This document shows positions 20,001-37,195 of a stretch of 41,677 bases of DNA, piece by piece. The stretch is taken from positions 1 through 41,677 of IMG/VR virus record IMGVR_UViG_3300036782_000146, one strand, 5' to 3'. Positions within the stretch are counted from its first letter, which is position 1; every line of letters begins with the position of its first letter. Source of the DNA: a virus. Position numbers and translations under genes: made by a program. A model generated the notes under the pieces. It did not search any database. It saw only the letters and a list, made by a program, of their open reading frames with translations, and was not told where the DNA came from.

Positions 20001-20831
20001 ATGAAGAAGATCATCAACATCGCGGTCCTAGTCCTCGTCTGCTTCGCGCTTACCGCGTGGGGTCTGACCACTGTGACTGGTCAGCACATAATCAATTCCG
20101 TCATCGATTCGACCACGATTGGTGCAACGATCCCGGCAACGGTGCGCGCAACCACCTTGGCGGCCACGGCGCAGCCGTTGAGCACAATCCCCGGCAATAG
20201 CACCTACCTGTCGTGGAACGGCACCAATGGTGCTGGCGAGTCAGACTTCTTCGACAATTACGGTGCGTCAACCGGCGGGTTCTACTGGTTTGCTACAGGC
20301 AATGATCGTAGTGGTGGATGGTCCTCATCGGCTCCGCAAATGACTCTGAATAAGAGTGGGCTGCTCTTCAGCGCTGGCGGATATACGACACCGAGTTCTG
20401 TTACCGCAGGCAGCGGCTTCTTTGGAAACCTAAATGGCAACGCCAGCACGGCCACCGCAGCCAACACCGCGAGCGCATTCGACCACACACCTGCAGGCTG
20501 CACAGGGATCAATACATTCGCCAGCAGCATCGACAATGCTGGCGACCTTGGCTGCGGACATACCGCTGTGGTGCGCAGTCTGGTCACCGCAGCTTGCACG
20601 ACCGGCTCTGCATCTTATTCGACCTGCAATACCCCAGCGACCGACTGGTCATCGCCCTTCCCGGCTGGTGCGACAGTGCATGCGACGTGTTCGCTCGCTA
20701 CCGCGAGTGATCCACGCGCTTCTGTTGGAGTCCTGTCAGTTGTGAACGGTACGGGCATCATCGGGACCATCGTCACCGAGGGAAGCGTATCGGTTACAGC
20801 TTCTCTGGAGTGCATCGGCGTTGAGGACTAA
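20001..20831 (+). CDS. Fibre-like protein with an N-terminal signal peptide
   Basis: This encodes 276 residues. Residues 1-27 look like a Sec signal peptide (MKKIINIAVLVLVCFALTAWG). The mature part is Ser/Thr/Gly-rich with fibre-type sequence: NSTYLSWNGTNGAGESDFFDNYG, TGGFYWFATGNDRSGG, and GSGFFGNLNGNASTATAANT. The last third has six cysteines (AGC, LGC, AAC, STC, ATC, LEC). It lies between neck genes, where an exported protein is not expected. It may be an outer structural fibre, a head fibre or a lysogen surface protein. Confidence 0.55.
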   Translation: MKKIINIAVLVLVCFALTAWGLTTVTGQHIINSVIDSTTIGATIPATVRATTLAATAQPLSTIPGNSTYLSWNGTNGAGESDFFDNYGASTGGFYWFATGNDRSGGWSSSAPQMTLNKSGLLFSAGGYTTPSSVTAGSGFFGNLNGNASTATAANTASAFDHTPAGCTGINTFASSIDNAGDLGCGHTAVVRSLVTAACTTGSASYSTCNTPATDWSSPFPAGATVHATCSLATASDPRASVGVLSVVNGTGIIGTIVTEGSVSVTASLECIGVED

Positions 20832-20834
20832 ATC

Positions 20835-21197
20835 ATGATCGATGTTTCCATGGTCCTTCTGAATCCCGATATCTGCGAGTCGTTCACCGCGCAGCGGTCA
20901 TCTGGCCAGTTCGGTGATGATGGCCGATTCGCAAGTCAGACCACGGATATCCCTCTCTACGGATCAGTGCAGAAGCCCGACGCGAATACGCTGCAACAAG
21001 TTGATGAAGGCGATCGCGTCACGGGAGCCCGCGCGTTTTATTCGATTTCGCCGATGTATGAGACGCGAGCGGGTGATAACGCCGGACTCAGCGACCTTCT
21101 TGTGCACCGTGGGCAGAAGTACCGCGTCGCCAAGGTATGGGACTGGTCAAATTTTGGCTATTGGCACGCATACGCGGTTCGCCTCTCGGGTGCGTAA
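20835..21197 (+). CDS. Probable head-closure/neck protein
   Basis: This encodes 120 residues from ATG 20835 with GAGGAC upstream. It has the pattern of small neck proteins of this phage group: MVLLNPDICESFTAQR near the start, GSVQKPDANTLQQVDEGDRVTGARAFYSI in the middle, then DLLVHRGQKYRVAKVWDWSNFGYWHAYAVRL. The assignment rests on position (after the connector genes, before the terminator) and on the overall pattern, not on a named domain. Confidence 0.6.
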   Translation: MIDVSMVLLNPDICESFTAQRSSGQFGDDGRFASQTTDIPLYGSVQKPDANTLQQVDEGDRVTGARAFYSISPMYETRAGDNAGLSDLLVHRGQKYRVAKVWDWSNFGYWHAYAVRLSGA

Positions 21198-21200
21198 AAC

Positions 21201-21803
21201 ATGAGCACGACAACGACGTTCAGCTCCGGGCAAACACTCACGTCGTCGGCCCTGACCCAAACGGAGGCTGAGAATGCGATCCAGTCACTGTTGGTTCAGG
21301 TGCTCGATGTTCCCGGATCAACCGTCCGCCCCTCGTGGCCTACGGCTGGCGCTCCTGCGTTTGATATCACGGATGATGTTTGCTTCTTAAAAGCAACGCT
21401 CTCAAATGACCGAGTCAATCGATCCAGAGACACAGCCCATACGGGAAGTGGAGAAACGCTCACCGTCACGGTGACTTACCTCCGCGTCTGGGACATTGGA
21501 TTGGCCCTATACGGACCCAACAGCTTTGATCGTGCTCGCCTGATCAAGTCCGCATTACTCATGGGTTGGACGCAGCGGTCACTAGCCACCAACAATCTGG
21601 CACTCGTGCTCGACATGGATGACCCACGCCGCCTGCCAGAATTATTCGCGTCACAGTGGTGGGAACGATCCGACTTCTCATTCCGGCTCAATGAGCTTGT
21701 CACTGAGACCACGACGGTTCCATCGATCGCTTCTGTCGAAATCGACCTCTTCACGCAGGACACATCCGTGTCTCAGCCGGTGGCCGTAATCACGCCTCAG
21801 TAA
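21201..21803 (+). CDS. Phage neck terminator protein (gp12-like)
   Basis: This encodes 200 residues. The characteristic blocks are present: YLRVWDIGLALYGPNSFDRARLIKSALLMGWTQRSLATNNLALVLDMDDPRRLPELFASQWWERSDFSFRLNELVTE in order, then TVPSIASVEIDLFTQD. This is the LIC_12616/gp12-like neck terminator family. It ends the tail tube and joins it to the neck. The next gene is the sheath, separated by a hairpin element. Confidence 0.8.
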   Translation: MSTTTTFSSGQTLTSSALTQTEAENAIQSLLVQVLDVPGSTVRPSWPTAGAPAFDITDDVCFLKATLSNDRVNRSRDTAHTGSGETLTVTVTYLRVWDIGLALYGPNSFDRARLIKSALLMGWTQRSLATNNLALVLDMDDPRRLPELFASQWWERSDFSFRLNELVTETTTVPSIASVEIDLFTQDTSVSQPVAVITPQ

Positions 21804-21825
21804 GTCTCCCCACCTTTTAACCATA

Positions 21826-21857
21826 AACGGCTCCCTCTCCGGGGGCCGTTCGCATTT
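21826..21857 (+). terminator. Strong hairpin with TTCGCATTT tail before the sheath gene
   Basis: Ten base pairs (one wobble) join 21826-21835 to 21841-21850 around TCTCC, followed by CGCATTTT. From 21828 the next 30 bases match those at 29339-29368 at about 28 positions. It may terminate or attenuate between the neck genes and the sheath/tube genes. Confidence 0.6.
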
Positions 21858-21869
21858 TCGCGAGGTATC

Positions 21870-23243
21870 ATGTCCGCTTTCCCTCTCAGTTTGAACCCGG
21901 TCGTAGATGTCACCACCACCGTCGAAGCCGGAGCCATCACCGGCCCTTCTTTCCAAGCAGGCCTGATCGTCGGCAACAGCGGCGTGATCCCCGCGTCGGG
22001 CGCGAACTCTCGAATTCGCCAGTACGGATCTACCACTGCGATGCTCAGCGACGGGTACACATCTATCGATCCTGAGTTCATGGCAGCGCAGTTGTACTTC
22101 AGCCCGACGCCTACTCCTCCGGCGCTGTTCGTCGGTGCGCAGGACCCGACCGCTGCGAAGACCATCACTGTCGGTGCCACCGCTGGCACCGGGTATGTGG
22201 TGGGAGATGTGCTCTCGATCATGCAGGGCTCAGCCTCAGGCGCAACCTTAAAGGTCACTGAGATCGGCGCTGAAGGTGCGGTCACGACTGGCACTCTGCT
22301 CACGCAAGGCACTGGGTATTCCGTCGCAAATGGTCTCGCGACGACTGGCGGCACTGGCACCGGCGCGGAGATCAACATTACCGCGATAGGCGAGACACCT
22401 CTCCAGGCCGTGACGGCATGTCGTCTCGCTAGCGCCAACTGGTACGGAGTCATGGTCTGCGGATCGAGTGACGCGGACAACGAGGCCATCGCAGCCTACG
22501 TGCAGTCGGCATCACCACAGTCGCTCCACTTCTATGGCAGCCAGGACACCTCGGCAGCTACGGATAGCATCTTTGCTCAGCTTCAAACACAGAAGATCGG
22601 TCGGTCATTCGGTCACGCGGCCACCACGCAAGGCGGGGGATACCCGAGCAATGTGTACGTCGCAGCCGCTGACATGGGCCGCGCCCTGGGTCTGAACACT
22701 GGTCTGCCCAGCTCCAACTTCGTGATGAAGTTCAAGAGCCTGCCAGGCATCGCAGCCGAGCCTTTATCGGAGACGCAGGTTGATGCGCTTGAGGCGCAGA
22801 GCGCAAACGTGTATGTAACGCGTGGAAATGCGTTCACTTGGCTCGAACAAGGCACAGTCGCGTCGGGGCAATTCCTCGATACCGTCATGGGCATCGACCG
22901 CCTTATTTCGAAGATTCAGCTTGGGGTAACGAACCTTTTCGTAAGTCAGAACGCGGTTCCTCAGACCGATCCAGGCGAGGCTCTGATCATGAACGTCGTG
23001 AGCCAGGCCTGCGCCTCTGAAGTGACAACCGGCTTCCTCGCGCCCGGAGTATGGACCGGCACGACCGTCGGCACCCTCACCGCAGGAACTGCCGTGCCGA
23101 AGGGCTACCTCGTTCAGGCGCTGTCTTTTGCGACGCAGTCATCGGGCGATCAGCAGGCACGCAAGGGCATGCCGATCACTGTGTGTGTCATCACTGCAAA
23201 CGGCATCCAGTCAATCGCAATCGGCGTAACAGTTCAGGTTTAA
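21870..23243 (+). CDS. Tail sheath protein (DUF3383 family)
   Basis: This encodes 457 residues. DUF3383 blocks are visible: FQAGLIVGNSGVIP, FMAAQLYFSPTPTPPALFVG, then CRLASANWYGVMVCGSSDADNEAIAAYVQ, GRSFGHAATTQGGGYPSNVYVAAADMGRALGLNTGLPSSNFVMKFKSLPGI, and VTRGNAFTWLEQGTVASGQFLDTVMGIDRL. Residues about 92-176 are a Gly/Thr-rich inserted domain (GTGYVVGDVLSIMQG ... GTGYSVANG ... GTGTGAEINIT), probably projecting outward. The sheath contracts to drive the tube into the cell. This gene makes the phage a myovirus. Confidence 0.85.
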   Translation: MSAFPLSLNPVVDVTTTVEAGAITGPSFQAGLIVGNSGVIPASGANSRIRQYGSTTAMLSDGYTSIDPEFMAAQLYFSPTPTPPALFVGAQDPTAAKTITVGATAGTGYVVGDVLSIMQGSASGATLKVTEIGAEGAVTTGTLLTQGTGYSVANGLATTGGTGTGAEINITAIGETPLQAVTACRLASANWYGVMVCGSSDADNEAIAAYVQSASPQSLHFYGSQDTSAATDSIFAQLQTQKIGRSFGHAATTQGGGYPSNVYVAAADMGRALGLNTGLPSSNFVMKFKSLPGIAAEPLSETQVDALEAQSANVYVTRGNAFTWLEQGTVASGQFLDTVMGIDRLISKIQLGVTNLFVSQNAVPQTDPGEALIMNVVSQACASEVTTGFLAPGVWTGTTVGTLTAGTAVPKGYLVQALSFATQSSGDQQARKGMPITVCVITANGIQSIAIGVTVQV

Positions 23244-23253
23244 GGGGTAATTC

Positions 23254-23694
23254 ATGTTCCAGTACAGTTTCGCTTCAATCCAGCTCTCCTTCACCCACGC
23301 GCTCGCCGGTAACTTTCTGTGGAACGGTGAACAGGCGAACGGCGGCGTCACCATTGCCCCGCTCACTGATCACACCGATCAGGAAACTACTCCCGATGGC
23401 GCGGTGATCACCAATTTCATTCCTGGGGATAGTGCGGCGTTCACGGTCACGACCCAGCAGATATCCGCTCTGCATGCCTTCCTTATCGGCTGGCACAATG
23501 CCTGCGTCACGGCTGCGAAGTTGGGCGACCTGTCCGACTACAACACCGCTGCAGCCATCGTGCGCGATCCCATCAGTGGCCGCACGCACACGATGCAGGG
23601 GATTGCTCCGAGCAAGATCCCCGATACGCCATACAACCCTAAGGCGCAGATGCTGTCCTGGGTGCTCAAGGTTTCCAACCTGGTGACGGAGTAA
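23254..23694 (+). CDS. Tail tube protein
   Basis: This encodes 146 residues from ATG 23254 with AAGGGG 6 bases upstream. It directly follows the sheath, as tube genes usually do. Blocks fit small tube proteins of this group: the N-terminal QYSFASIQLSFTHALAGNFLW, a central PGDSAAFTVTTQQISAL, then RDPISGRTHTMQGIAPSKIPDTPYNPKAQMLSWVLKV. It would form the rigid inner tube through which DNA passes. Confidence 0.8.
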   Translation: MFQYSFASIQLSFTHALAGNFLWNGEQANGGVTIAPLTDHTDQETTPDGAVITNFIPGDSAAFTVTTQQISALHAFLIGWHNACVTAAKLGDLSDYNTAAAIVRDPISGRTHTMQGIAPSKIPDTPYNPKAQMLSWVLKVSNLVTE

Positions 23695-23698
23695 TTAA

Positions 23699-24070
23699 AT
23701 GGAAATGCATAAGGACGTTCCCATCGGTGAGCACAAATACCGGATCGGCAGGCTTCCCGCCCGCACCGGTGCGTGGATTCTGCAACTGATCCTGAAGCAG
23801 ATGCAGGGCTCGCTCACCGAAGCTGACCACGCGAACATTCAGAGTCATCTTCTCTCCGTATGCTCGCGCCTGAAGAACGGCGTCCCTCTGCCAGTATTGC
23901 AGGCTGACGGCACGTTTGCGGAGAAGGACCTAGAGTTCGACCTGAACACGGTAGTTAAGCTCCAAGGAGCCGCGAGGGATTTCAACTTCGATGATTTTTT
24001 CGCGGAACGGGCTCGCGAGATAAAAGAAGCGAAGGCCCGGGCCCTGAGTTCCGACAGTTCGAGCGAATAG
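23699..24070 (+). CDS. Tail assembly chaperone, zero-frame product
   Basis: This encodes 123 residues between tube and tape measure, the standard position of tail assembly chaperones (lambda G). Residues 1-90 are helical: GEHKYRIGRLPARTGAWILQLILKQMQGS, HLLSVCSRLKNGVPLPVL. The gene reads on in zero frame to a Ser-rich end (SSDSSSE). A slippery heptamer at 23995-24001 would send part of the ribosomes into the -1 frame to produce a longer chaperone. Both forms assist tube assembly around the tape measure. Confidence 0.75.
   Translation: MEMHKDVPIGEHKYRIGRLPARTGAWILQLILKQMQGSLTEADHANIQSHLLSVCSRLKNGVPLPVLQADGTFAEKDLEFDLNTVVKLQGAARDFNFDDFFAERAREIKEAKARALSSDSSSE
23995..24001 (+). other. Slippery heptamer T TTT TTC for -1 frameshifting
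   Basis: In the zero frame the codons are TTT (23996-23998) and TTC (23999-24001), preceded by T. This is the canonical X XXY YYZ form. The -1 frame opens only from 23995, right after a TGA at 23992-23994, and stays open to 24237. The site thus lies at the first place where a shift could succeed. Confidence 0.7.
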
Positions 24071-24237
24071 ACGCCTTCCTGTTCCGTCCAGTCGTTGCGG
24101 GCCTTTGGACGCATAAGGACATCGTCACTGATGTCTTTACGTTTCAGGACCTCCTGGACGCACACGAATATCTCGATGTGCGCGAAGAGAACGCTGAGAT
24201 ACAGAAGGCGTGGCAGGACAGCCTGACGCAAAAGTAG
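23995..24237 (+). CDS. Tail assembly chaperone, -1 frame extension (lambda T-like)
   Basis: This is the second half of the frameshifted product. Starting from residue 101 of the zero-frame protein, it adds 78 residues, giving about 179 in all. It has no start codon of its own with a ribosome-binding site. The sequence is clearly protein-like: FERIDAFLFRPVVAGLWTH, VFTFQDLLDAHEYLDVREENAEIQKAWQDS. The LDVREENAE type ending is common in second-frame chaperone domains. It ends 6 bases before the tape measure start, whose ribosome-binding site TAGGA overlaps its stop codon. Confidence 0.65.
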   Translation, partial: FFRGTGSRDKRSEGPGPEFRQFERIDAFLFRPVVAGLWTHKDIVTDVFTFQDLLDAHEYLDVREENAEIQKAWQDSLTQK

Positions 24238-24243
24238 GATCAA

Positions 24244-26046
24244 ATGGAAGAATCCGGAATTTTTGACGAGTACCTTGTAAAGCTCGGCTTTGACTCCGAT
24301 CCAGCAGGCTATGCCAAGTTCGCATCGACGCTGACCGACGCCGCAGGTATCGCTGCCAGCCGGACCAAGTCAATCGTTGAATCTCTCGGCAAGTGGCAGG
24401 GTGCCATTGTCGGCGGATTCGCGGCCATCGGTACTGCTGCTCTCGTCACGATGGACAAGGTGGCTGATGCGGACCTGGGCTACCAGCTCCTCGCCACGAA
24501 AATGTTCATCGGCGTGGATGCTGCCAAGCAGCTCTCCATCGCCACGGACGTTCTGGGCCACAGCCTGGACGAGATCGCGTGGAATCCGGAGCTACATCGC
24601 CGCTTTGACATCCTTTTGGATGACCAGAAGCGCATGGCCGAGGTCATGGGCCATGGCTACGAGCCAGCACTCCTCAACATCCGCGAGATCCGCTTCCAGT
24701 TTTCCAGGCTTCAGGATGAACTCCAGTTCGGCCTCCTGCCGACCCTGGTCTCCGATGTATTCGACGACCTTGGCGGTGGAAACGCTCTCCAGAAGCTGGA
24801 GAATCTGAACGATTGGGTCATCGATCATCTCCCAGAGATCGCCTCGACCTTCAGCAAGTACCTTGTTCCGGTCCTGAAGGATGCGAAGGATGTCGGCAGT
24901 GATGTCGTCGGCATGCTTGAAGATGCGGGCGTGGCCTTCACGAACTTGGTCGGCCTGATCTCTGGCGATCATTCGATCGAAGGTACGACATTAAATTTTG
25001 ATCACCTGCTGACCGCTGTAGATCACGTCTCTCACGGTTTCGCGAAGTTTGTGAACACGATTACCGATGCGGAGCGTATTCTCGCTCATCTCGCAAGCGG
25101 TACAGCTCTCTTCTTCTCCGGACATTACGAAGAGGCGGCTGCTGAATATAAGAAGGCAATGCAGGACTTCACTGCTGGCAGCGGCGCTGTCCTGGGTGGA
25201 GTCGTCGGCACTGGCGCTGGAGCATTTGGCGGATCAGTTGCCGGTGGAGCGATTGGCACGACGATCGGAGCTACGCTCGGCTCCGTGGTTCCCGTATTCG
25301 GCACGGCTGCTGGCGGAGCAATAGGTGGAGCACTAGGTACGGCGTTCGGCGGCACGGTAGGTGCGGTCGGCGGTGGCATCACCGGTGCTGGCGGAGGTGC
25401 CCTGGAAGGCTGGTGGAAACAGAAGGTTGATCCATCCACCCCGGAGCACGGCTTCTACGTTCCCGACAGTGGAATTAAGAGCACTTCGTCAGGAAGCATC
25501 CACGACCTGATCGATTCGCTCGCCTCGAAATACAGCATCGATCCCTCTTTTGCTCATGCCGTAGCTGGCGCTGAGTCCGAAGAGCAGCAGGTCGCAAATG
25601 GACATCTGATCACCAGTAACAAGGGTGCGCAGGGCATCTTCCAGCTCGAACCGGGCACGGCTGCTCAGTACGGCGTCGACCCCAGTGATCCCGCTGGAAA
25701 CATCAAAGGTGGCCTGCAGCTCCTCGCCGATCTCGGCAAGAAGTACAACGGCAACGTTGAAGAGGTCCTGGCGGCCTACAACTGGGGTCAAGGTCACCTC
25801 GACAAGGCGATCGCGCGTCATGGTGGATTCGACACGTCCTATCTACCTCGTGAGACCCGGGACTACATCGCCCGGATCGAGTCGCGGATGGGTGGCGACA
25901 TTCACGTCAGCACCTACGTCTACGCGTCGCCCAATCAGAACGCGCAAGAGGTCGGTAAACAGGCGTCTGACCAGACGATCGCTCAACTCCGTGCTCGTCG
26001 GCAGACTACTTCAAACATAGCGATGCTCGGGAGCGCCTTTCAATGA
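24244..26046 (+). CDS. Tape measure protein with glycine-zipper and SLT lysozyme domain
   Basis: This encodes 600 residues, short for a myovirus. Residues 1-300 are helical. Residues about 312-390 are an almost pure Gly/Ala/Val stretch with GxxxG spacing (GGVVGTGAGAFGGSVAGG type), which could insert in membrane. Residues about 420-545 are a soluble lytic transglycosylase domain: SKYSIDPSFAHAVAGAESEEQQ with likely catalytic E444, then GAQGIFQLEPGTAAQYGVDP, and VLAAYNWGQGHLDKA. At about 1.5 angstrom per residue, the protein suggests a tail of up to about 90 nm. It overlaps the next start as ATGA. Confidence 0.88.
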   Translation: MEESGIFDEYLVKLGFDSDPAGYAKFASTLTDAAGIAASRTKSIVESLGKWQGAIVGGFAAIGTAALVTMDKVADADLGYQLLATKMFIGVDAAKQLSIATDVLGHSLDEIAWNPELHRRFDILLDDQKRMAEVMGHGYEPALLNIREIRFQFSRLQDELQFGLLPTLVSDVFDDLGGGNALQKLENLNDWVIDHLPEIASTFSKYLVPVLKDAKDVGSDVVGMLEDAGVAFTNLVGLISGDHSIEGTTLNFDHLLTAVDHVSHGFAKFVNTITDAERILAHLASGTALFFSGHYEEAAAEYKKAMQDFTAGSGAVLGGVVGTGAGAFGGSVAGGAIGTTIGATLGSVVPVFGTAAGGAIGGALGTAFGGTVGAVGGGITGAGGGALEGWWKQKVDPSTPEHGFYVPDSGIKSTSSGSIHDLIDSLASKYSIDPSFAHAVAGAESEEQQVANGHLITSNKGAQGIFQLEPGTAAQYGVDPSDPAGNIKGGLQLLADLGKKYNGNVEEVLAAYNWGQGHLDKAIARHGGFDTSYLPRETRDYIARIESRMGGDIHVSTYVYASPNQNAQEVGKQASDQTIAQLRARRQTTSNIAMLGSAFQ

Positions 26047-26819
26047 CATACCGTCCTCCCGAGTGGTCACAGCCAGCACTGACGGTCATCACCCTGACCT
26101 CGGCACCGACCGCCGCGTCATCGTCAACGGATGACCTGAGCAGCGGAGCCTCCGCGAACACATCGGGCGCAAGTGTTCAGCTTGATGACGGGACCATCGC
26201 CACACCACAGTTTGTTGATAACGCAACCTTGGGCGGCAGCGCATCCGGTGGATCATCGGGCTCGCTCACATATGTGTACGTATTCGACGCGATCTACCGT
26301 GTGCAGCATTCCCGTCGCCTCCGGATGACCGAGCACCCGGTGCAGAGTGGCGCAAGCATCAGCGATCACGCATTTATCCTGCCTGCGAAGGTCTCGCTTG
26401 AGATCGGCATGAGCGATGCTATGGACGCATTTACTCCGGGCGTCTTCACTTCGAATGCCAGCAAGAGCGTGTCTGCATACGAGACTTTGGTCTCGCTCCA
26501 GACGGGTCGGCAGCCGCTGACTCTCACCACGCGCCTGGACACATACACGAACATGCTGATCGAGAGCATAGACGCTCCCGATACGAAAGAAACGCGGTAC
26601 GGACTCAAGGCTACCGTCGTCCTCAACCAAATCTTCACCGGCACGGTGACCTCCCAGGGCGTGAGCGCCAGGCCGCAAACAACGGATGCAACGAGCATCG
26701 GAGCAAAGCAGCCGGTGCCGGTATCCAGTAACGCTTCGCAGCCGTTCACGAGGACCGATACAACCAACGTCTTCGGCGCGGGCAATGTGAGCAGCGTAGG
26801 TAGCGCGGGTGGTTCCTGA
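26043..26819 (+). CDS. Dit-like baseplate/tail protein
   Basis: This encodes 258 residues, starting at an ATGA overlap with the tape measure. The central block is typical of Dit-like N-terminal domains in simple myoviruses: VYVFDAIYRVQHSRRLRMTEHPVQSGASISDHAFILPAKVSLEIGMSDAMD, later LQTGRQPLTLTTRLDTYTNMLIESIDAPDTKETRYGLKATVVL. The first 85 residues and the last 60 are Ser/Thr/Gly-rich and probably flexible. It would form the ring at the base of the tube. Confidence 0.78.
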   Translation: MTYRPPEWSQPALTVITLTSAPTAASSSTDDLSSGASANTSGASVQLDDGTIATPQFVDNATLGGSASGGSSGSLTYVYVFDAIYRVQHSRRLRMTEHPVQSGASISDHAFILPAKVSLEIGMSDAMDAFTPGVFTSNASKSVSAYETLVSLQTGRQPLTLTTRLDTYTNMLIESIDAPDTKETRYGLKATVVLNQIFTGTVTSQGVSARPQTTDATSIGAKQPVPVSSNASQPFTRTDTTNVFGAGNVSSVGSAGGS

Positions 26820-27157
26820 TGTCTCTTCAACAGATTCCGCTGGATAACTCGCCGCACCAGACCTTCACCGTCTCGCTGAACGTGGACGGAAACAATCTCA
26901 CTCTCCAGCTCGCCATCAACTTCAACGTTATGTCGGGCTACTGGGTTCTGGGAATTTCTGATGCCCAAGGGAATCTCCTGCTGTCCTCGATCCCACTCCT
27001 CTGCGGTGTGTGGCCAGCGGCGAACCTGCTCGCACAGTACAGGTACCTGAAAATCGGCAGCGCATACGTTATCAACCAGGGCTCGACTCTCGACTCACCC
27101 GACTCAACCACGCTCGGCAGTCAATTCGAGCTGTGGTGGGGCGACACCGCTGCATAA
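26819..27157 (+). CDS. Baseplate plug-like protein (Pam3 gp18-like)
   Basis: This encodes 112 residues, overlapping the previous stop by one base. It has the pattern of the cyanophage Pam3 gp18 plug domain: PLDNSPHQTFTVSLNVDGNNLTLQLAINFNVMSGYWVLGISDAQGNLLLSSIPLLCG, then LGSQFELWWG. These small proteins close the tube in the baseplate hub. The order (Dit-like, plug, hub, spike) fits that assignment. Confidence 0.75.
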   Translation: MSLQQIPLDNSPHQTFTVSLNVDGNNLTLQLAINFNVMSGYWVLGISDAQGNLLLSSIPLLCGVWPAANLLAQYRYLKIGSAYVINQGSTLDSPDSTTLGSQFELWWGDTAA

Positions 27158-27166
27158 GGATTCGAA

Positions 27167-28186
27167 ATGAGCACAGCATCCATGCTTCCGTTATTTGGTC
27201 GCGTGTGGAGTCTCCAGGTGCTGACCGCTCCCGTTCAGGGACAGGATCAGCGGACCCTGCTCAATGTCTCGACTAGTACAGGATCAGATGACGATAAGGC
27301 ACTACGCATCGTCTTTGACGTCCACATGACGGCGGGGCACGGCTATCTGTGGGAAGCGAACATAGAAATCTACAACCTGGACCCGTCAACGATGGGCCTG
27401 ATCACCCAGGGCGCTCAAGTATCGCTCGCCATCGGATACGAGGCGAACGGGGAACCCTCCGAGATCTTCAACGGCTTCGTCTTTCAGCCAACGTTTGAGC
27501 GCCGGGATGTAACAGACTTTGTTTTGACGCTACACTGCTTCCTCGGCCTGCTCGACATCGTGAACAACGCCATGAGCGTTACCACAGGGCCTGTTTCGAA
27601 CCAGTGGGACATTGTTCAAAAAATGGTCCAATCCGCTGGGATCAAGATTGCTCACATTGACCCAGCTTCGTCCTTCAGCCAGCAGAAGCTGCCGCGCGGT
27701 AAGACGATATTCGGATCACCGAACAAGCTTCTCGCGCAGATCGCCAGCCAGAATAACCTGCTGAGCTTCTACACTCCCAGCGGCCTGATGATCGGGAAGC
27801 CGGGATCATCCTCATCTACTCCCGACCTGACGTTCGCTCCACCTCTCGGGCCCGGGCAGCAGCCATCCAGCGACGAAGCGAGCATCACTCGCTCACTGAT
27901 CGGCAGTCCGCAACAGACTCAAGACGGAATCGTCTTCCGCGTTCTCGGTGATCCACGCATCCAGATCAGGCTGCCTTTGATGCAGGTCAAGATCGACCAA
28001 GCTGTCATTCGGCAGCAGACTTTCACTGTGGGTTCGTTCCCTAAGCTGTCCTCGATCCTGAACCAGGACGGCGTGTATTACATCGCTGGCGTTAATCACC
28101 TCGGCGATAGCCGAGGAAACACCTGGGTCACCGAATGCATTGGCATTACGTCAGTGACTAGCCTGTTCCCTCTACTTGGAAATTGA
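27167..28186 (+). CDS. Baseplate hub protein
   Basis: This encodes 339 residues from ATG 27167 with AAGGA upstream. The outline is of gp27/gpD-type hubs: an N-terminal beta domain (LRIVFDVHMTAGHGYLWEANIEIYNLDPSTMGLI), then YEANGEPSEIFNGFVFQPTFERRDVTDFVLTLHC, and a second half with GKTIFGSPNKLLAQIASQNNLLSFY and a repeated beta barrel (IQIRLPLMQVKIDQAVIRQQTFTVGSF). It would sit between the tube and the spike that follows immediately. Confidence 0.78.
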   Translation: MSTASMLPLFGRVWSLQVLTAPVQGQDQRTLLNVSTSTGSDDDKALRIVFDVHMTAGHGYLWEANIEIYNLDPSTMGLITQGAQVSLAIGYEANGEPSEIFNGFVFQPTFERRDVTDFVLTLHCFLGLLDIVNNAMSVTTGPVSNQWDIVQKMVQSAGIKIAHIDPASSFSQQKLPRGKTIFGSPNKLLAQIASQNNLLSFYTPSGLMIGKPGSSSSTPDLTFAPPLGPGQQPSSDEASITRSLIGSPQQTQDGIVFRVLGDPRIQIRLPLMQVKIDQAVIRQQTFTVGSFPKLSSILNQDGVYYIAGVNHLGDSRGNTWVTECIGITSVTSLFPLLGN

Positions 28187-28858: not shown

Positions 28859-28863
28859 ACAAG

Positions 28864-28898
28864 ATGGCGGCTTAGGCCGTCGGGCGGTCTTCCGCCAT
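28864..28898 (+). other. Intergenic hairpin after the spike gene
   Basis: ATGGCGG (28864-28870) and CCGCCAT (28892-28898) are perfect arms with an inner CCGTCGGGCGG. There is no T-run. The 5' side resembles the hairpin at 17417 (ATGGCGGC, then TTA here and CTA there). Confidence 0.45.
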
Positions 28899-28949
28899 TC
28901 GGATGCGCCGATAAACGCTCAAGTGGGGTGCGAAGCCCTGCTCCAATTT

Positions 28950-29315
28950 ATGCCGACCATTACAGTCAGAAAACTCGACAGAAACTGGGACCCAGTATGG
29001 GGAAACGGTCAGGATGACTATATCTCCGACGCTGATGCCGTCACCCAGATTATTAAACAGAAGCTCCTATTCTTTCTCGGTGAGTGGTGGGAGGACAGAA
29101 GTGCGGGTACTCCGATGTTTCAATCCATCCTCGGAGCGAGCCGCAGCATTGACGCCGTCGCCGCCATAATCAAAAACGTGATCCTGAGCGCTCCTTACGT
29201 GACTGGCGTCAGCAACCTCGCGGTGACTTACGTCTCGTCCACCCGCAGCTACACCTACTCCAGTCAGGCACAGACGCAGTTCGGCACGATCACCATCAGC
29301 GGAACGTCCGCCTAA
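28950..29315 (+). CDS. Baseplate wedge protein (gp25-like)
   Basis: This encodes 121 residues from ATG 28950; a GTG at 28923 is also in frame, and neither has a good ribosome-binding site. Typical blocks are present: LDRNWDPVWGNGQDDYISDADAVTQIIKQKLLFFLGEWWEDRSAGTPMFQSILGA, then VILSAPYVTGVSNLAVTY. These small proteins join the hub to the baseplate J wedge. It lies just before the J gene, as usual. Confidence 0.75.
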   Translation: MPTITVRKLDRNWDPVWGNGQDDYISDADAVTQIIKQKLLFFLGEWWEDRSAGTPMFQSILGASRSIDAVAAIIKNVILSAPYVTGVSNLAVTYVSSTRSYTYSSQAQTQFGTITISGTSA

Positions 29316-29338
29316 CTAACCCAAGCTTCATTTCTTTC

Positions 29339-29368
29339 CGGCTCCCTCTCTGGGGGCCGTTTGCATTT
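29339..29368 (+). terminator. Hairpin with TTTGCATTT tail before the baseplate J gene
   Basis: CGGCTCCC pairs with GGGGGCCG around TCTCT (29339-29359), followed by TTTGCATTT. Over 30 bases it matches the element at 21828-21857 at about 28 positions. The two hairpins precede sheath and baseplate J, the starts of two structural blocks. Confidence 0.6.
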
Positions 29369-29379
29369 GCGGATAAAAA

Positions 29380-30558
29380 ATGGCATACGCTCCTCCGACA
29401 ATCACGGCAGCCGGTCTGCAGATCCCTGCCTACGCGGACATCATCGCTTATTACGTCGCCGCCAAGCAATCGATCTACGGCAGCACGATCTATCTGGGCG
29501 AGGACAGCCCCGACTATCAGGAGATATCGGCCTTTGCCGCGAAGGTGAACGATGTAATGCAGGCGGTTCAGCTTGTATACAACGCTCGCTCTCCGATCAC
29601 CGCTGTCGGCTCCGATCTCGATTCGGTAGTCAAGCTTAACGGGCTGGTGCGCGGCGGCGCAACGCAATCCACCTGTCCAGTCACGTTGTCGGGCACCGCA
29701 GGTTCCACGATCACCAACGGTGTCTGCACGGATCAGGCGGGAAACTCCTGGGCCCTTCCGGCCTCCATCACGATTGGATCAGGTGGTACTGCCAACGCTA
29801 CGGCGACGTGCGCCACTCCAGGACCGATATCCGCATCCGTGAACACGATCACATCGATCGCGACGCCGACGGCGGGATGGACATCAGTCACGAACAATGC
29901 GGCTGCCACTTTAGGCCAGCTCGTCGAGGCAGACTCCGCGCTGCGTGCGCGGCAGGCGATCTCGGTTGCTCTACCCGGCCTGACCATGCTGCAGAGCACG
30001 ATAGCTGCTATCGCTGCGACAACGGGCGTCACTCGCTACTTGGCCTTGGAAAACCCAAGTGGAGCCGTAGACAGCTACGGAAACCCAGCACACTCGATCA
30101 CGGCAGTCGTCGAAGGCGGTACGGATGCTGATGTCGCCCAGGCGATTTATTCGAAGCGTGGTATCGGCTGCTTCACCAACGGCACGACCACGATCAGCGT
30201 CAGCGATCCGGTCAATGGTACCGCGATACCTATCAGTTTCGATCGGCCCACATACGTTCCGATCTTCGTGACGATGACCGTGCATGGTCAGAGCGGCTTC
30301 TCTAGCTCGACGTTAACGGCGATCCAGACCGCCATCGTGAACTATCTGAACTCGCTCCAGATAGGCGAGTCGCTCAACTACTCCGCTATTTATTTCGCGG
30401 CTCAGTCTGTCATGCCGAATCCCTCCCTGCCGCAGTTCTCGGTTAGGTCGGTGGCGATCGGCACGGCTGCTAGTCCGACTGGCATGAGCGATATCTCGAT
30501 CAACTTCAATGAGGTCGCGCAAGGCGTGATCGCCAACGTAAGCGTTTCAACGGTGTAA
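29380..30558 (+). CDS. Baseplate J-like protein
   Basis: This encodes 392 residues. The baseplate J family is shown by IIAYYVAAKQSIYGSTIYLGEDSPDYQEISAFAAKVND at the start, GGATQSTCPVTLSGTAGSTI, then LVEADSALRARQAISVALPGLTMLQSTIAAIAATTGVTRYLALENPSG, and DADVAQAIYSKRGIGCFTNGTTTISV. It forms the wedges that surround the hub and trigger contraction. The next gene, DUF2612, is its usual partner. Confidence 0.88.
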   Translation: MAYAPPTITAAGLQIPAYADIIAYYVAAKQSIYGSTIYLGEDSPDYQEISAFAAKVNDVMQAVQLVYNARSPITAVGSDLDSVVKLNGLVRGGATQSTCPVTLSGTAGSTITNGVCTDQAGNSWALPASITIGSGGTANATATCATPGPISASVNTITSIATPTAGWTSVTNNAAATLGQLVEADSALRARQAISVALPGLTMLQSTIAAIAATTGVTRYLALENPSGAVDSYGNPAHSITAVVEGGTDADVAQAIYSKRGIGCFTNGTTTISVSDPVNGTAIPISFDRPTYVPIFVTMTVHGQSGFSSSTLTAIQTAIVNYLNSLQIGESLNYSAIYFAAQSVMPNPSLPQFSVRSVAIGTAASPTGMSDISINFNEVAQGVIANVSVSTV

Positions 30559-30562
30559 CTCA

Positions 30563-31198
30563 ATGGCTGAGACAAATGAAGGTTTCGGCCTCGGTGGATT
30601 CGGGCAGGGGCCATTCGGCGGAGAGCCCGTCGAGAACCTCCCGATACCGTATTACACCGGGCTCATCACCAGCGAATATCAGGGCTCGACGAAGTTCCAG
30701 CAATGGATGAAAGCTCTGCTGCAGCCCCTCGATGATGCGAGTCAGTGTTTAGCGTCTGTGACGCTGGCATTCGATCTCGACCAGGCAGTCGGCGTGCAGC
30801 TCGACGTGCTCGGTCAAATCGTCGGCCAGGGAAGAGCGATGACGTTCCAGCCTTCGAGTGGAGCGTCTCCCATCCTCGATGACACGACGTACCGGCTGCT
30901 GCTCAAGGCGCGTGTCGCCTGGAACCAGTGGGACGGCACGATCGATGGTCTTCAGACGGTCTGGAAGAACCTCTTTCCCAATGGATCGATATCGATCGAG
31001 GACGGCCAGAACATGTCCGCCACGGTCATCCTTACCGGTGCCTTTACTTCCCTGGAACAGGATCTAGTCAACAACGGCCTGATCGTCCCTCGGCCTGAGG
31101 GCGTGCTCTACAACATAACGTTCTCTTCGCTTCCAATCCTCGGCTTCGGCCCGACGACCGCAGTCATTGCAGGATTTGGCGTTGGAAAGTTCGCGTAA
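30563..31198 (+). CDS. DUF2612 baseplate/fibre-connector protein
   Basis: This encodes 211 residues. DUF2612 blocks are clear: YTGLITSEYQGSTKFQQWMKALLQPLDDASQCLASVTLAFDLDQAVGVQLDVLGQIVGQGR, then LDDTTYRLLLKARVAWNQWDGTIDGLQTVWKNLFP. The ends are Gly-rich (GFGLGGFGQGPFGG). The protein lies at the outer edge of the baseplate and connects to fibres encoded just downstream. Confidence 0.82.
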   Translation: MAETNEGFGLGGFGQGPFGGEPVENLPIPYYTGLITSEYQGSTKFQQWMKALLQPLDDASQCLASVTLAFDLDQAVGVQLDVLGQIVGQGRAMTFQPSSGASPILDDTTYRLLLKARVAWNQWDGTIDGLQTVWKNLFPNGSISIEDGQNMSATVILTGAFTSLEQDLVNNGLIVPRPEGVLYNITFSSLPILGFGPTTAVIAGFGVGKFA

Positions 31199-31211
31199 CT
31201 AAGGACCACAA

Positions 31212-31784
31212 ATGTCAGCAACCACAAATTTTCAGGTCTGGAATCCCAACCAGGTCAACCAGGATTCGGACTCGGCATATACGTCGGATTCTCTTCGCAC
31301 TGGCGGAGCCGTGGACGGCGATGTCTTCGAGGCAGTCCTTGCGAACAAGCTGTTCTATCAGGTTTCCACGATGGTCGCGGCTCTGGGCACCATGCTCGCT
31401 GATAAGGGATTCACGAACAGTGATTCAAATTTCAATCAGCTAGTCTCTGTGCTCTCGAACATCGTCACGACTGCCGATCAGAAGCAACCTCTGCTGGTCG
31501 TATCACCCGGGGCATCGCTCACGTTTGATTGCTCGAAAGCGGACGGCTTTCAAGTCACGCTCAACGCAAGTGTGACCAGCTCGACTGTTGAGAACGCCTC
31601 ACCGGGGCAGATTGTGACCTTTGTCTTGATCCAAGATGGCACGGGCGGTCATACATTCGCGTGGCCCGCCTCGATCACAGGAACAACTGCGATTGATGCT
31701 ACAGCGAACATCACAAACGTGCAGAGCTTCATCGCTCGCGCCGACGGAACACTCCGTCCGCTGACCCCGCTGCTCAATAACTAA
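31212..31784 (+). CDS. Tail fibre adaptor/short fibre protein
   Basis: This encodes 190 residues from ATG 31212 with AAGGA upstream. The N-terminal NFQVWNPNQVNQDSDSAYTSDSLRTGGAVDGDVFEAVLANKLFYQVSTMVAALGTMLADKG is a fibre attachment-type domain. The C-terminal half is beta-rich with a HTFAWPASITG strand, as in short fibres. It has no signal peptide and only one cysteine, in contrast to the two large fibres that follow, so it may be the piece that stays on the baseplate and holds them. Confidence 0.7.
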   Translation: MSATTNFQVWNPNQVNQDSDSAYTSDSLRTGGAVDGDVFEAVLANKLFYQVSTMVAALGTMLADKGFTNSDSNFNQLVSVLSNIVTTADQKQPLLVVSPGASLTFDCSKADGFQVTLNASVTSSTVENASPGQIVTFVLIQDGTGGHTFAWPASITGTTAIDATANITNVQSFIARADGTLRPLTPLLNN

Positions 31785-31826
31785 GTTCCCTCGCCCATTT
31801 CGGGTCTCTCCTCAGGAAAAAAAATC

Positions 31827-34454
31827 ATGAAGAAATTCTGTGCCCTCGTGGCGCTCGCGATCTCGTGCGCTCTGCTGTCGATCTCTGCATCTGCCCAAAC
31901 TGTCACGCCTAATGCTGGACTGCAGGTTCCGGCATACGCAAGCCTGAATTGGCAGGTTCCGGTGATCTTTGACCTGACCCGAATCGACAACATCTTCGGC
32001 GGCACGGTATCGGTCCCCTCGATCACGCTCTCTGGATCGATCACGAATGCGAATCAGGCGGCGACGAAGGCATATGTCGATTCGGTAGCCCAGGGATTCC
32101 TGCAGGCAAGCGGCGCGACCATGACTGGGCCACTTGTATTGTCGGGAAATCCGACGGCTCCGCTCCAGGCTGCCGATAAGTCGTATGTCGATGCTGCGGT
32201 TGCTGCGGGTGGAGGCACAGGCTCTCTCACTGCATCCGCGATCTACACCGCTCTTGGCTACACCCCGCTATCCTCGACTACCGTCCCTGTTCCCGTATAT
32301 GACTGGACCCACACGGCGGTCCTGAACTACCTGAATGGCGTCTTCTCGGTCGACGGTAACTCGCAATCGAGCTGCACCGTAAGCGGCACAAGTTATACGA
32401 CAGCTTTTGACTGCGGCCTCGCGAATGCGCGCAACTACGCATCGAACACCACTCTCGACCCGAATCAGACAGACGCGACTCTGCTGGTGGGCAGTAACGG
32501 CGTTCTGGCGACAAATCTCGGGGCGCAACTACCCACCTCGACGAGCACTCACGCCACTGTGAACATCGTCGGCAGCGGCATCAACAGCTCCTACCTGCAA
32601 CTGAGCAGCTCGCTGCCTTCCGGCACTTGCATGATCACCCAGCCCGATGAAGCGACGGCGGGTAACTCTGCATATTTGCACATAGAAGGTCTCACGCTCG
32701 ACCTGAACGGCAATGCAGACTGTGCGATGTCTATCGATGGCGTGAAGTCGAGCATCTTCCGGAATATCAAGGCGATCAACACGCGCACCACAGCAGCGGG
32801 CTCCGGTGGGTTCGTGTTTAAGTTTGGTGGGACCACGGCAAGCGGGGCGGTCTACGAAGCATTCCTCGAAAACATCATCACGGATGGCACCGCTGGTGGT
32901 TACACACCCGCCGCGATCTCCTGCGCCACCCTCACGACCGCTGGCAATCCTGTGTGTACGGTGAGCAACGGTGGCAGCTATCCGAACGGCGTCGGTCAAG
33001 TACAGACCTGGGGCGTTGGAAATGGATCGGGTGCGTGCTCGACTTATCCAACATGGTCGCTCACGTTTAACGGCACTACGCTCACCGCCGTCACCGCATC
33101 GGGCGGCGTCTGCATCGGCCAGGTCTATCCAGTAGTTACTCCCCCGGCAGTCGCTGACAATGCCTTTCTCTTCAATAGTGGTTTCACTGATAGCACGGTA
33201 AAAGACGTGCGGGCGGTAGTTTCCACGAATTTCGCCGCAGTGAAAGTACTCGGGCATCCGAATACTTTCATCCACTATCACGCTTATGCCGGTCAGCCCG
33301 TGGGTTTCGAAGATCACGGCAACGATGTCTGGCAGGACACTGAATGCGACACATTGGGCGGATTCTGCGGAGCGATCGAAGGTCCCGAGACGCTGGTATA
33401 TGGCACTCAGGAGATCTTCAACAACTTCACCGCGACTCAGGGAAGCTCCCTGTTCTACGTCGACCAGAGTGTCACCGCTCCGACCTTCTACGCGAACGGT
33501 GTCACCTGCAACGGCAATAGACAGACAGTCGGTGGATATCACTCGCTCGTGATCGGCACAGGACTTCCGTACAGCAATACATCGGCTACGGGCGGCGCTG
33601 TCGACACTGGGTACTCGATTCCCAGCGGCGTGCAGATGGAGAATGTCTACGACTGCTCGTCGCAGCCGACCGTCAACGCCTTCATCTCGCATATCGGCTC
33701 GACTCAGTTGGAAGGTCCTGTCCACTTGACTCCGCAAAATGTGTCTTCGGCCACAATCACCGGAGTTAACTCTCCTGTTCTCTATCAAGATGGGTATAGC
33801 TTCAATAGTGGCGCGAACACTCTCGTAAGCTGGGCTTCGGGCCATGCTGATGGCCCCGGATACAGCAACTTCTATATCCAGCCGCCTGACAACATCGGGA
33901 GCACGCAGTACGAGCTGAAGCCTCCGAGCAACGCCAGCTCGACGACGAACTACAACTCTGTTCCCTGGCTGCTAGATGCGAGCGTGTGGCATGCGGGTGC
34001 GGCCCTTTCCTCAAGCCTCAAGTGCCAGATTGTGGCAGGAACAGGCACCGATCCGACGGTCGAGGCTCGCTGCAGTCATGGAGGCGCTGATACTGGCGCA
34101 TTCTTCGTGTCGTTTCCGCATATAGGTGGCCCGAGTTATTACGCCGCTCCGTCGGCTGCTGCTGGCGCTGCTCTAGGTGGTTCCACAATCAGCACGAGCG
34201 GCAATGACACGGACTTCACGGTCAGCTTCACGACGGGCGCTACGCCTGCAACAGGGGCGCTGGCCACGATGACCTTCGCGAAGCCATGGAGCACTGCTCC
34301 TCGGTGTACCACGCCGACGGCTAAGAACGCGGCGTCTGCAGCAGTGGTGCCTTATCTGTATCTGACCGAGACGACAACAACGATCTCGATCTCGACGACG
34401 ACAGCGCTCGCGGCCTCGACGGCTTATCAGTTCGATCTGTTCTGCGCTCAGTAA
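31827..34454 (+). CDS. Large tail-fibre/tailspike protein with signal peptide
   Basis: This encodes 875 residues. It begins with MKKFCALVALAISCALLSISASAQ, a good Sec signal peptide with cleavage near residue 23. Residues about 75-125 hold two fibre-type repeats (ATKAYVDS; GATMTGPLVLSGNPTAPLQAADKSYVDA). From about 160 to 700 the protein looks like a beta-helix or lectin-like surface with many short Gly/Asn turns. About 16 cysteines follow the signal peptide. It would bind or cut host surface sugars. The signal peptide and cysteine content are unusual for a phage fibre. Confidence 0.7.
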   Translation: MKKFCALVALAISCALLSISASAQTVTPNAGLQVPAYASLNWQVPVIFDLTRIDNIFGGTVSVPSITLSGSITNANQAATKAYVDSVAQGFLQASGATMTGPLVLSGNPTAPLQAADKSYVDAAVAAGGGTGSLTASAIYTALGYTPLSSTTVPVPVYDWTHTAVLNYLNGVFSVDGNSQSSCTVSGTSYTTAFDCGLANARNYASNTTLDPNQTDATLLVGSNGVLATNLGAQLPTSTSTHATVNIVGSGINSSYLQLSSSLPSGTCMITQPDEATAGNSAYLHIEGLTLDLNGNADCAMSIDGVKSSIFRNIKAINTRTTAAGSGGFVFKFGGTTASGAVYEAFLENIITDGTAGGYTPAAISCATLTTAGNPVCTVSNGGSYPNGVGQVQTWGVGNGSGACSTYPTWSLTFNGTTLTAVTASGGVCIGQVYPVVTPPAVADNAFLFNSGFTDSTVKDVRAVVSTNFAAVKVLGHPNTFIHYHAYAGQPVGFEDHGNDVWQDTECDTLGGFCGAIEGPETLVYGTQEIFNNFTATQGSSLFYVDQSVTAPTFYANGVTCNGNRQTVGGYHSLVIGTGLPYSNTSATGGAVDTGYSIPSGVQMENVYDCSSQPTVNAFISHIGSTQLEGPVHLTPQNVSSATITGVNSPVLYQDGYSFNSGANTLVSWASGHADGPGYSNFYIQPPDNIGSTQYELKPPSNASSTTNYNSVPWLLDASVWHAGAALSSSLKCQIVAGTGTDPTVEARCSHGGADTGAFFVSFPHIGGPSYYAAPSAAAGAALGGSTISTSGNDTDFTVSFTTGATPATGALATMTFAKPWSTAPRCTTPTAKNAASAAVVPYLYLTETTTTISISTTTALAASTAYQFDLFCAQ

Positions 34455-34465
34455 TTCGGAGAAAT

Positions 34466-37195
34466 ATGAACAAGCTACTTTCCATCCTTGCGGTGTTGGG
34501 CCTCGCTGTGCCTGCTCTCGGTCAGACGACCAATGTGGTCGCGACTAACCTGCAGATCTTCAATACGCGAGGCGGCAAGCTGACGGGCTCTGTGTGCATG
34601 CAGCCTGTATATAAGAATGCTGCGTCTGCGTTCTCCGCCGATGGCACAGCTCAGGTGCTACCTGCTGTGGCGTGTTTTCCGGTCTCGAACGGAAGCCTGA
34701 ATTTCTCGGTGCCCAGCACTGATTCCGCGAACCCACAGGTTTGTTACAAGACCTACCTGCAAAGCTCGAACGGGACTCAGATCTACCAGTGGCAGCAGCC
34801 GCTGTGCATATCCGGGACCACCTTCAATCTCGATCAGTACGCGCCCACCCAGGTCGTGACTGTCACTACGCCTTCGCTGCAGTACACCCCTAATGCTCCG
34901 TCGGGGGACTGCGGCTCTGCTATCGCCCTCGACGTTTCTGGTGTTGTTCCTACTCTGTCCCTGTACGCGTGTTTAGGTCACTCTTGGGCCCTCATGCCTC
35001 AGGGCGGTGGTGGAAGCTCAGTGATCCTGCAGACGGCTGGCACAAACAACACGCTCCAGACACTGCTGAACTTCGTCGCTTCGACCGCGAATGTCTCCGG
35101 CCTTACGATCACGCCTTCCAACCCGAGCGGCGGCGTCGAGAGGTTTGAAATCACCGGCAGCCCGACCACACTGAACGGTGTGACGCCGGGCAATATCATC
35201 AGCCACAACGCCTCGGACTTTGATGCCAGTGGCGCTGCGGCGAATGCGGAGGCTGCCGCTGTTGCGTCCAGCTTGCAGCTCGCAGGCGGGACCATGACTG
35301 GTGCTCTAACCTTGGCGGCTGATCCCACGACGAACCTTGGAGCAGCAACCAAGCAGTATGTCGATGCTCACAGCACGCAAGCCGTCGAATCAGACACGGT
35401 AATCCTAGCTGCAAGCAACTCCCCGCAAAAGGCGCAGGCGAATGTAGTTTGCTCGGGCACGGCGGATCAGACTTGCATCAACAATGCGATCGCCACGTAT
35501 TGTCCTAACGCCTCTGCTGGCGTGACTGGATGCAAGATCACTCTGCTCGATGGCGTGTACAACATCTCCGCTCCCATCGTGATCGATTCCGATGATGTGA
35601 CCCTGACAGGCACGCATCACTGTATGTGGGGTGGCTGGAACCACAGCTGGGTTAGCACGAGCAGTCCGGCAGGTGCGATAGGCACTGGCTGCGCTCAGAT
35701 CAGAGCCTCGGCCACCGGCTACGACATCATCGACCTCGCGAATACCACCCCTGCAGGAACGGGTTCAGACACGTATCGGCATCGTGGCATCCACATCCAT
35801 TGGCTATATCTCGTGGGCGACGGCTACACGGGATACGGCATAAACCTGGGTGGCATGGCTGACTTTTGCTCGATCACGGACAACGTGATTCAGCGAGTCG
35901 CGACCGGTATCGGCGTCACCTTGGATTCTCCGACGATTGCAGATAACTCGCTGCAAGACATCAGCGGCGACGCGCTCGATATAGGCCAAAACACCGTCCT
36001 TGCGCGGGCCTCCGGAAACCTGATCTTTGACATCGGGCGCTACGGCATAGCGAATGAGGGATATAGCACCGTCATCGAAGGCAACCGCATTGGAGATACT
36101 GCGAACACAGGAGTATTCAACTCGGGTCGCTCAGCTACGATCACCGCGAATGTGTTCGGTCCGATCGTAGGCAGCGCGATCTATCTGCAGTACTCGTCTA
36201 ACTCCGTCGTGTCAGCGAATACGATCGATTATTGCGACATAAACATGGGCTTCTACACAAAGCTGCCAGACACGAGTGATGCAATTGCGGCGGATTCGAA
36301 CACGTCAGGTCTGGCGGTCACCGGAAACACTCTCTGCACCTTACCAGTCGAGGGTGGTTATGCCATCAACGTGGCGGCAGCGTCCAACGCGGCGGTGAGC
36401 GGCAATTCGATCACTGGGTTCTGGAATGGGGGAGCTGGCTCTATATCGCTAGGCACTGCCGCGAACGCGGGGAATGCAGCTCAAACCCCTGCTCTTAACC
36501 CCATCGTCGCTGCGTCATCCGTCGCGCTATCAGGTCGGTATGTAGCCTCGTCGATCACCGGTGTGGCGTCTGGCTCCGCGATCACATCCTGGCCAGACAG
36601 CTCTGGCCTGGGAAGAAACCTGAGCATTCTCAGCGGCAGTGGTCCAAAATATGAAGCCACGTCGCTCGTCCATAGCGGTCCTGCTGTACGGTTCAACGGG
36701 ACGAACGACGCACTGGGCAATCTCACGTTCATGACGGCTGCTGGGACATCAGCCAAGACAGCATTCGCTGTTTTCAGCCTGTCGACAACGGCAGCAGCGC
36801 GTGGCCAAAACGTTTCTGTATTCAACGGTTACAGCAGCTTCAATGCTGGGTTCATCAACGCAGGTGGAAACACTGTCTGCATGTTCACCAGCGGGGTGGG
36901 ATGCGCGACGCAAACGGCTGGCGCGACCTCCACCACTTACGTGGTGGAGTGGGTTTGGAACGGCACCAGCTCTCGTATCGCGGTGAATGGAGCGAGCACG
37001 AGCTTCAGCGAGGGCGCATCCGGCTGGCTGAGTGGCCTGGTAATCGGCGCGAACGCCTCCTACACCAGCGAATTCTTCCCTGGCGATATCGCAGAAATCG
37101 ATGGGTACACAGGTGCTGCCTCCACTACGGATGCGGCTGCGATCGGCGCTGCACTTTGCAGCGCGTATGGCGTCACCTGCAGCACAACCTGGTAA
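34466..37195 (+). CDS. Large tailspike-like protein: signal peptide, beta-helix, LamG-like end
   Basis: This encodes 909 residues from ATG 34466 with CGGAGA upstream. MNKLLSILAVLGLAVPALGQ is a Sec signal peptide (cleavage near 19). Residues about 270-300 are a fibre repeat (GGTMTGALTLAADPTTNLGAATKQYVDA). Residues about 320-670 form a pectate-lyase-like parallel beta-helix: short repeated N/D-turn units such as ITDNVIQRV, IADNSLQDI, ASGNLIFDI, IEGNRIGDT, ITANVFGPI, VSANTIDYC and VSGNSITGF. Residues about 685-900 are a concanavalin-like domain (WPDSSGLGRNLS, VRFNGTNDALG). It contains about 19 cysteines. Probable surface-binding depolymerase. Confidence 0.7.
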   Translation: MNKLLSILAVLGLAVPALGQTTNVVATNLQIFNTRGGKLTGSVCMQPVYKNAASAFSADGTAQVLPAVACFPVSNGSLNFSVPSTDSANPQVCYKTYLQSSNGTQIYQWQQPLCISGTTFNLDQYAPTQVVTVTTPSLQYTPNAPSGDCGSAIALDVSGVVPTLSLYACLGHSWALMPQGGGGSSVILQTAGTNNTLQTLLNFVASTANVSGLTITPSNPSGGVERFEITGSPTTLNGVTPGNIISHNASDFDASGAAANAEAAAVASSLQLAGGTMTGALTLAADPTTNLGAATKQYVDAHSTQAVESDTVILAASNSPQKAQANVVCSGTADQTCINNAIATYCPNASAGVTGCKITLLDGVYNISAPIVIDSDDVTLTGTHHCMWGGWNHSWVSTSSPAGAIGTGCAQIRASATGYDIIDLANTTPAGTGSDTYRHRGIHIHWLYLVGDGYTGYGINLGGMADFCSITDNVIQRVATGIGVTLDSPTIADNSLQDISGDALDIGQNTVLARASGNLIFDIGRYGIANEGYSTVIEGNRIGDTANTGVFNSGRSATITANVFGPIVGSAIYLQYSSNSVVSANTIDYCDINMGFYTKLPDTSDAIAADSNTSGLAVTGNTLCTLPVEGGYAINVAAASNAAVSGNSITGFWNGGAGSISLGTAANAGNAAQTPALNPIVAASSVALSGRYVASSITGVASGSAITSWPDSSGLGRNLSILSGSGPKYEATSLVHSGPAVRFNGTNDALGNLTFMTAAGTSAKTAFAVFSLSTTAAARGQNVSVFNGYSSFNAGFINAGGNTVCMFTSGVGCATQTAGATSTTYVVEWVWNGTSSRIAVNGASTSFSEGASGWLSGLVIGANASYTSEFFPGDIAEIDGYTGAASTTDAAAIGAALCSAYGVTCSTTW

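Follow-up and report, generated by a model that had tools for sequence, protein, structure and literature searches.

Tailed phages whose fibres or spikes would be made as Sec pre-proteins, several of them infecting Acidobacteriota, form a set to which the phage studied here appears to belong. Its DNA, an IMG/VR virus record, was analysed over 41,677 nucleotides (the window), and two genes of its tail operon, named 31827 and 34466 after their first positions, encode fibres with predicted signal peptides. With a probability of roughly 0.6, the fibres would be exported, oxidized in the periplasm and attached at lysis to virions built in the cytoplasm, the three steps being taken together. Fibre export is very likely as judged from the sequence, and we infer at about two in three that the exported fibres attach to virions. 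The signals with their start sites, their recurrence, their placement before a dock module, the cysteine enrichment and the position in the tail operon were all seen directly in the DNA.

Fibre genes of the window

The window encoded an integrase (1-1359), a resolvase, a Mu-F-like protein, portal, capsid and sheath, together with tape measure, baseplate and gpI proteins. With portal, capsid and sheath the phage is a tailed myophage, and with the integrase at 1-1359 it is probably temperate. A filamentous phage coat protein of the pIII type was ruled out for the window, head and tail genes being present. Besides the tyrosine integrase, a serine resolvase (PF00239) was located at 10682-11320, distant from the fibre genes, for which a role in DNA inversion is possible. 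A gene for an SOS response-associated peptidase (SRAP) lay downstream of the fibre genes on the minus strand (38670-39350).

The gpI-like tail protein (DUF2612, phrog_587; 30563..31198, plus strand), which was the anchor for finding relatives, was followed by a conserved short tail fibre or adaptor with no signal peptide (phrog_9017; 31212..31784, plus strand), and then by 31827 and 34466, so that both fibre genes stood in the tail operon after the baseplate genes. The host is likely a member of Acidobacteriota, since the N-terminal part of 31827 is common to fibres of the phage Tunturi 5. A scan of genome contigs for host assignment gave eight loci, seven from Pseudomonadota and none from Acidobacteriota.

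The first fibre ORF (31827-34454, plus strand, 875 aa) began with a Sec signal peptide, MKKFCALVALAISCALLSISASA (31827..31895), for which SPase-I cleavage was predicted between ASA and QTV. Directly after it came a fibre N-terminal dock module, QTVTPNAGLQVPAYASLNWQVP...IDNIFGG (31896..32030), and the remainder (32031..34454) held the repeat GATMTGPL...KSYVDA and a cysteine-rich body. The second fibre or spike ORF (34466-37195, plus strand, 909 aa) started with the signal peptide MNKLLSILAVLGLAVPALG (34466..34522), with a predicted site between ALG and QTT, followed (34523..37195) by an N-terminal cysteine domain and the repeat GGTMTGAL...KQYVDA. Residues 458-622 formed a right-handed beta-helix (PF13229), and the C-terminal domain reads by eye like a lectin. 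No N-terminal module common to other fibres was identified in 34466. Both proteins displayed a charged n-region, a hydrophobic core, an AxA-type site and an ATG with a ribosome site just upstream (AGGA for 31827, GGAG for 34466). Of the 18 cysteines in 31827, 16 were located after the signal, as were all 19 in 34466, compared with 4 in the 486 residues of the portal and 1 in the 330 of the capsid. The full-length search of IMG/VR gave no match to 31827 and matched 34466 in the repeat region only, and no phage record covering most of either was found.

The third gene, 20001 (20001..20831, plus strand), was an uncertain member of the set. It encoded a small protein of 276 aa with 7 cysteines, with a ribosome site AAGGA and a hydrophobic N-terminus reading MKKIINIAVLVLVCFALTAWGLTTVTGQ, a long hydrophobic stretch with a poor cleavage site. 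It lay outside the tail operon, among genes of the head-tail connector, with phrog_222 and phrog_939 on either side; neither fibre repeat nor beta-helix was found in it, homologues were absent among the fetched loci, and PHROGs and Pfam had no match for it or for 31827. Since it has a poor site, no repeat and no such homologue, it was treated separately, as a candidate only, both as a fibre and as a cleaved protein. The first-pass annotation had given the three ORFs with their coordinates and starts as described here, and its cysteine counts and the fibre repeat in two genes were borne out; its description of all three as fibre-type genes with clear signal peptides held for 31827 and 34466 and is doubtful for 20001. 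At another locus (L109:1076-3560), the tail operon had two genes upstream of gpI, of 703 and 126 aa, that carried signals and recall 20001.

Recurrence of signals and the dock module

Signals were scored by a home-made procedure using n-region charge, 9-residue hydropathy and a von Heijne matrix. The first cleavage cut-off (3.5) already called 31827 and 20001, and 34466 (score 3.4) was called only after it had been lowered to 3.0. Among 3874 internal 60-mers of window proteins 24 (0.6%) were called. In tape-measure and adaptor genes, calls arising at internal start codons were false and were discounted by eye. Called signals had a median length of 20 and few lipobox-like sites; position -1 was mostly A, T, G or S, and position -3 mostly A, V or L.

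In the window's gpI relatives, genes of at least 250 aa had a signal in 16/21 cases after gpI versus 4/44 before it (Fisher p=1e-7, which overstates independence as the sequences are related); of the four upstream calls, two were the tape-measure false calls and one was the window's own 20001. Cysteines numbered 1.88 per 100 aa in signal-bearing proteins (n=26) versus 0.45 in signal-less fibres (n=82), a contrast of about four-fold whose p=7e-13 likewise overstates the independence of related sequences. Repeat-bearing fibre ORFs from 80 loci were mostly without signal (84/89), and three of the five called ones were convincing (L004, L061 and L066). Among phages of Streptomyces, Leptospira, Microcystis and Roseobacter, the annotated relatives had no signals, and in Burkholderiaceae and Enterobacterales the gpI relatives were followed by short signal-less fibres, the signal calls there being at internal starts and read as false. 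The search in Pseudomonadota gave too few module matches for use as a control. All nine rows of the window's clade in the gpI tree were signal-bearing (support 100/100); further signal-bearing rows lay outside it, and the tree forces at least two changes.

Aligned fibre N-termini had one dock module in common, TPNxGLxxP...W...LD, in fuller form TPNxGLQvPxxxxxNWQVP...LDxIFGG; alignments A1 and A3 had been dropped as pattern-scan queries, being too diverse. In signal-less fibres the module stood close to Met1; in 31827 and in gp337 and gp341 of Tunturi 5 it came immediately behind the cleavage site. Scanning for the module gave 57 loci. At 43 of these it was a stand-alone signal-less protein, mostly of 126-135 aa with at most one cysteine, and in 37/43 a called signal-bearing gene was located within 5.5 kb downstream; among those with no called partner, three stop at a contig edge and two show visible, uncalled signals. 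At 11 loci, with L178 and L179 near copies and L181 a borderline twelfth, the module followed a called signal in a fibre of 312-1720 aa with 4-22 cysteines, two of these fibres being cut by the contig end. The module of 31827 shared 52% identity with the dock of L088, which stands alone and has no signal. Relatives with no hydrophobic N-terminus had been proposed as a refutation of export, which proved too simple, as modules occur both with and without a signal.

The exported partners often began with INPxTQxNWP, and ORFs with an INPxTQxNW N-terminus were signal-bearing in 32/32 cases, some from shared contigs and with slightly laxer cut-offs. In most relatives the exported protein had no dock module of its own, so attachment is assumed there. 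The AlphaFold model of the dock had a confident C-terminal domain, the first 60 residues being of low confidence. The best PDB match of this domain was weak (CBA120 TSP4 N-terminal region, E 1.2e-3, TM 0.40), and the model had many tailspike and fibre matches in a viral library; in the model, its folded part is similar to the platform domains of tailspikes. The adaptor 31212, which showed a weak match to a tailspike depolymerase in fold comparison, was conserved (about 37-49% identity) ahead of either form of the dock. It had been put forward as the dock, and its lack of a signal fits this role, while the separate dock protein found in relatives is the better candidate.

Signals were also observed in cultured phages of Tunturiibacter, i.e. 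the podophages Tunturi 1 and 2 and the jumbo myophage Tunturi 5 (PMC11924767). When annotated starts were scored, six consecutive Tunturi 5 genes (gp337-gp342) started with signals, and the gene-level scan again called its four large signal-bearing genes. Between the fibre genes, gp339 and gp340 (L001:11067-11850) were small signal-bearing paralogues, which could be periplasmic fibre chaperones. Tunturi 1 and 2 had five signal-bearing fibre or spike genes each, with up to 34 cysteines, the signals differing between them by few and conservative changes, and neither annotation nor scan found another large fibre or spike gene in them. A pattern scan from Tunturi 2 gp12 found nothing. The gene-level scan found no signals in the tail genes of Tunturi 3 and 4; Tunturi 3 was isolated on the strain that also yielded Tunturi 1 and 2, so this host does not require signal-bearing fibres. 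Recombinases or integrases were annotated in Tunturi 3 to 5 only, clear plaques were reported, and the main text of that study is silent on signal peptides and reports no virion proteomics (PMC11924767).

Tail-protein families were matched by signal-bearing proteins of L004, L118 and L122, and others matched beta-helix/pectate-lyase, GDSL or GH10 domains. One protein in fibre position (L101:13835-18397; 1520 aa, 46 cysteines) carried a GH10 glycosidase domain behind its signal peptide. After the gpI relative of L118, two signal-bearing genes (L118:12156-16049) had no cysteines at all, so export does not always go with oxidation; the first of them had a C-terminal tail-fibre domain (phrog_9017). 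L118, L119 and L121, which are among the signal-bearing rows outside the window's clade in the gpI tree, may have hosts of other phyla.

Proposed assembly route and competing explanations

Assembly in the cytoplasm would cover heads, tails, the baseplate and the adaptor that lacks a signal, plus, in relatives, the signal-less dock. Before lysis the fibres would be exported and their signals removed at AxA-type sites followed by Q, and folding and disulfide formation would take place in the periplasm. Lysis would then mix the compartments and let the exported fibres attach to the virions, through a dock, which is fused into 31827 in the window and stands alone in relatives. We infer actual export and cleavage, the disulfides and the joining at lysis from the features given above. 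Export with later attachment is favoured because the signal is prefixed exactly to the fibre N-terminal module; the export with oxidation suggested earlier gains strong sequence-based support from this, from the recurrence in both related and unrelated phages, and from the four-fold cysteine density. For a general two-compartment route in tailed phages whose hosts are diderm soil bacteria, recurring in podo-, myo- and jumbo phages, with fibres disulfide-bonded in the periplasm and joined at lysis via a stand-alone or fused dock, the chances are about even.

The proteins could instead be exported and never join virions, acting as soluble or surface-bound depolymerases or receptor binders, released from the infected cell or lysogen, which clear polymers or mask receptors for spread or superinfection exclusion. 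This would agree with real signals, with the enzyme-like GH10, GDSL and pectate-lyase-like domains of some bodies, with the integrase of the window phage, and with the lack of a dock module in the exported protein of most relatives. However, the window and about 11 further loci have signal and fibre dock module fused in one protein, the genes have tail-fibre positions and fibre repeats, and annotation and scan gave Tunturi 1 and 2 no other large fibre or spike gene, so this explanation is rather unlikely. Display on the lysogen surface, raised in the first-pass annotation, is possible for the window phage with its integrase, and less likely as a general role because Tunturi 1 and 2, with five genes each, have no annotated integrase and form clear plaques.

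Less probable still, and only a slim chance, is an uncleaved hydrophobic N-terminus serving as inner-membrane anchor or tail docking helix, with the fibre folding in the cytoplasm. The long stretch and poor site of 20001 would suit it, but most other signals have good -1/-3 residues, the median length of 20 and few lipobox-like sites, and the cysteine enrichment fits an oxidising compartment. The docking helix considered earlier is further disfavoured as homologous docks have the module at Met1 with no helix, and the module starts where cleavage is predicted. It is very improbable that the signals are passive leftovers, carried in when secreted enzymes of the host were captured to serve as fibre bodies, and of little use to the phage: host-like domains do occur in some fibres, but a phage dock module is also preceded by a signal in several phages, the changes between Tunturi 1 and 2 are few and conservative, and every INP-type fibre (32/32) retains its signal.

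Comparison with known systems

Tailed phages are held to assemble wholly in the cytoplasm, and we know of no described tailed phage that matures its fibres outside the cytoplasm and adds them at lysis. No paper dealing with signal peptides in fibres of tailed phages turned up in our literature search, which is weak evidence, subscription journals being mostly outside the search; the papers examined name signal peptides in methods or references only. The sequences suggest that phages of soil bacteria, including cultured Acidobacteriota phages, may mature fibres outside the cytoplasm and join them at burst. If true, fibres needing export and oxidation would alter the cytoplasm-only picture and account for disulfide-rich receptor-binding proteins in such phages, recombinant production would call for periplasmic expression, and receptor-binding proteins may escape notice where a gene with a signal has been labelled a host-like secreted enzyme. 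With three phage-host pairs in culture, the model is within reach of testing.

The pIII and pVIII proteins of filamentous phages are structural proteins with signal peptides, and pIII is disulfide-bonded; they differ from the window fibres in belonging to extruded filamentous virions, not tailed ones, and have no homology to them. Tailspikes of the CBA120 TSP4 kind are made in the cytoplasm with no signals, and their branching platform, which is related to T4 gp10 and recruits other spikes, lies in the N-terminal region to which the dock C-terminal domain has its weak fold likeness. Like the window, Tunturi 1, 2 and 5 (PMC11924767) have runs of signal-bearing, cysteine-rich fibre or spike genes, and gp337 and gp341 of Tunturi 5 share the dock module of 31827, while these phages differ in type, being podo- and jumbo myophages. 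Finally, ordinary GxTMTG...YVDA fibres of IMG/VR loci share repeat, N-terminal module and operon position with the signal-bearing ones, and differ in having no signal peptide and about one quarter of the cysteine density.
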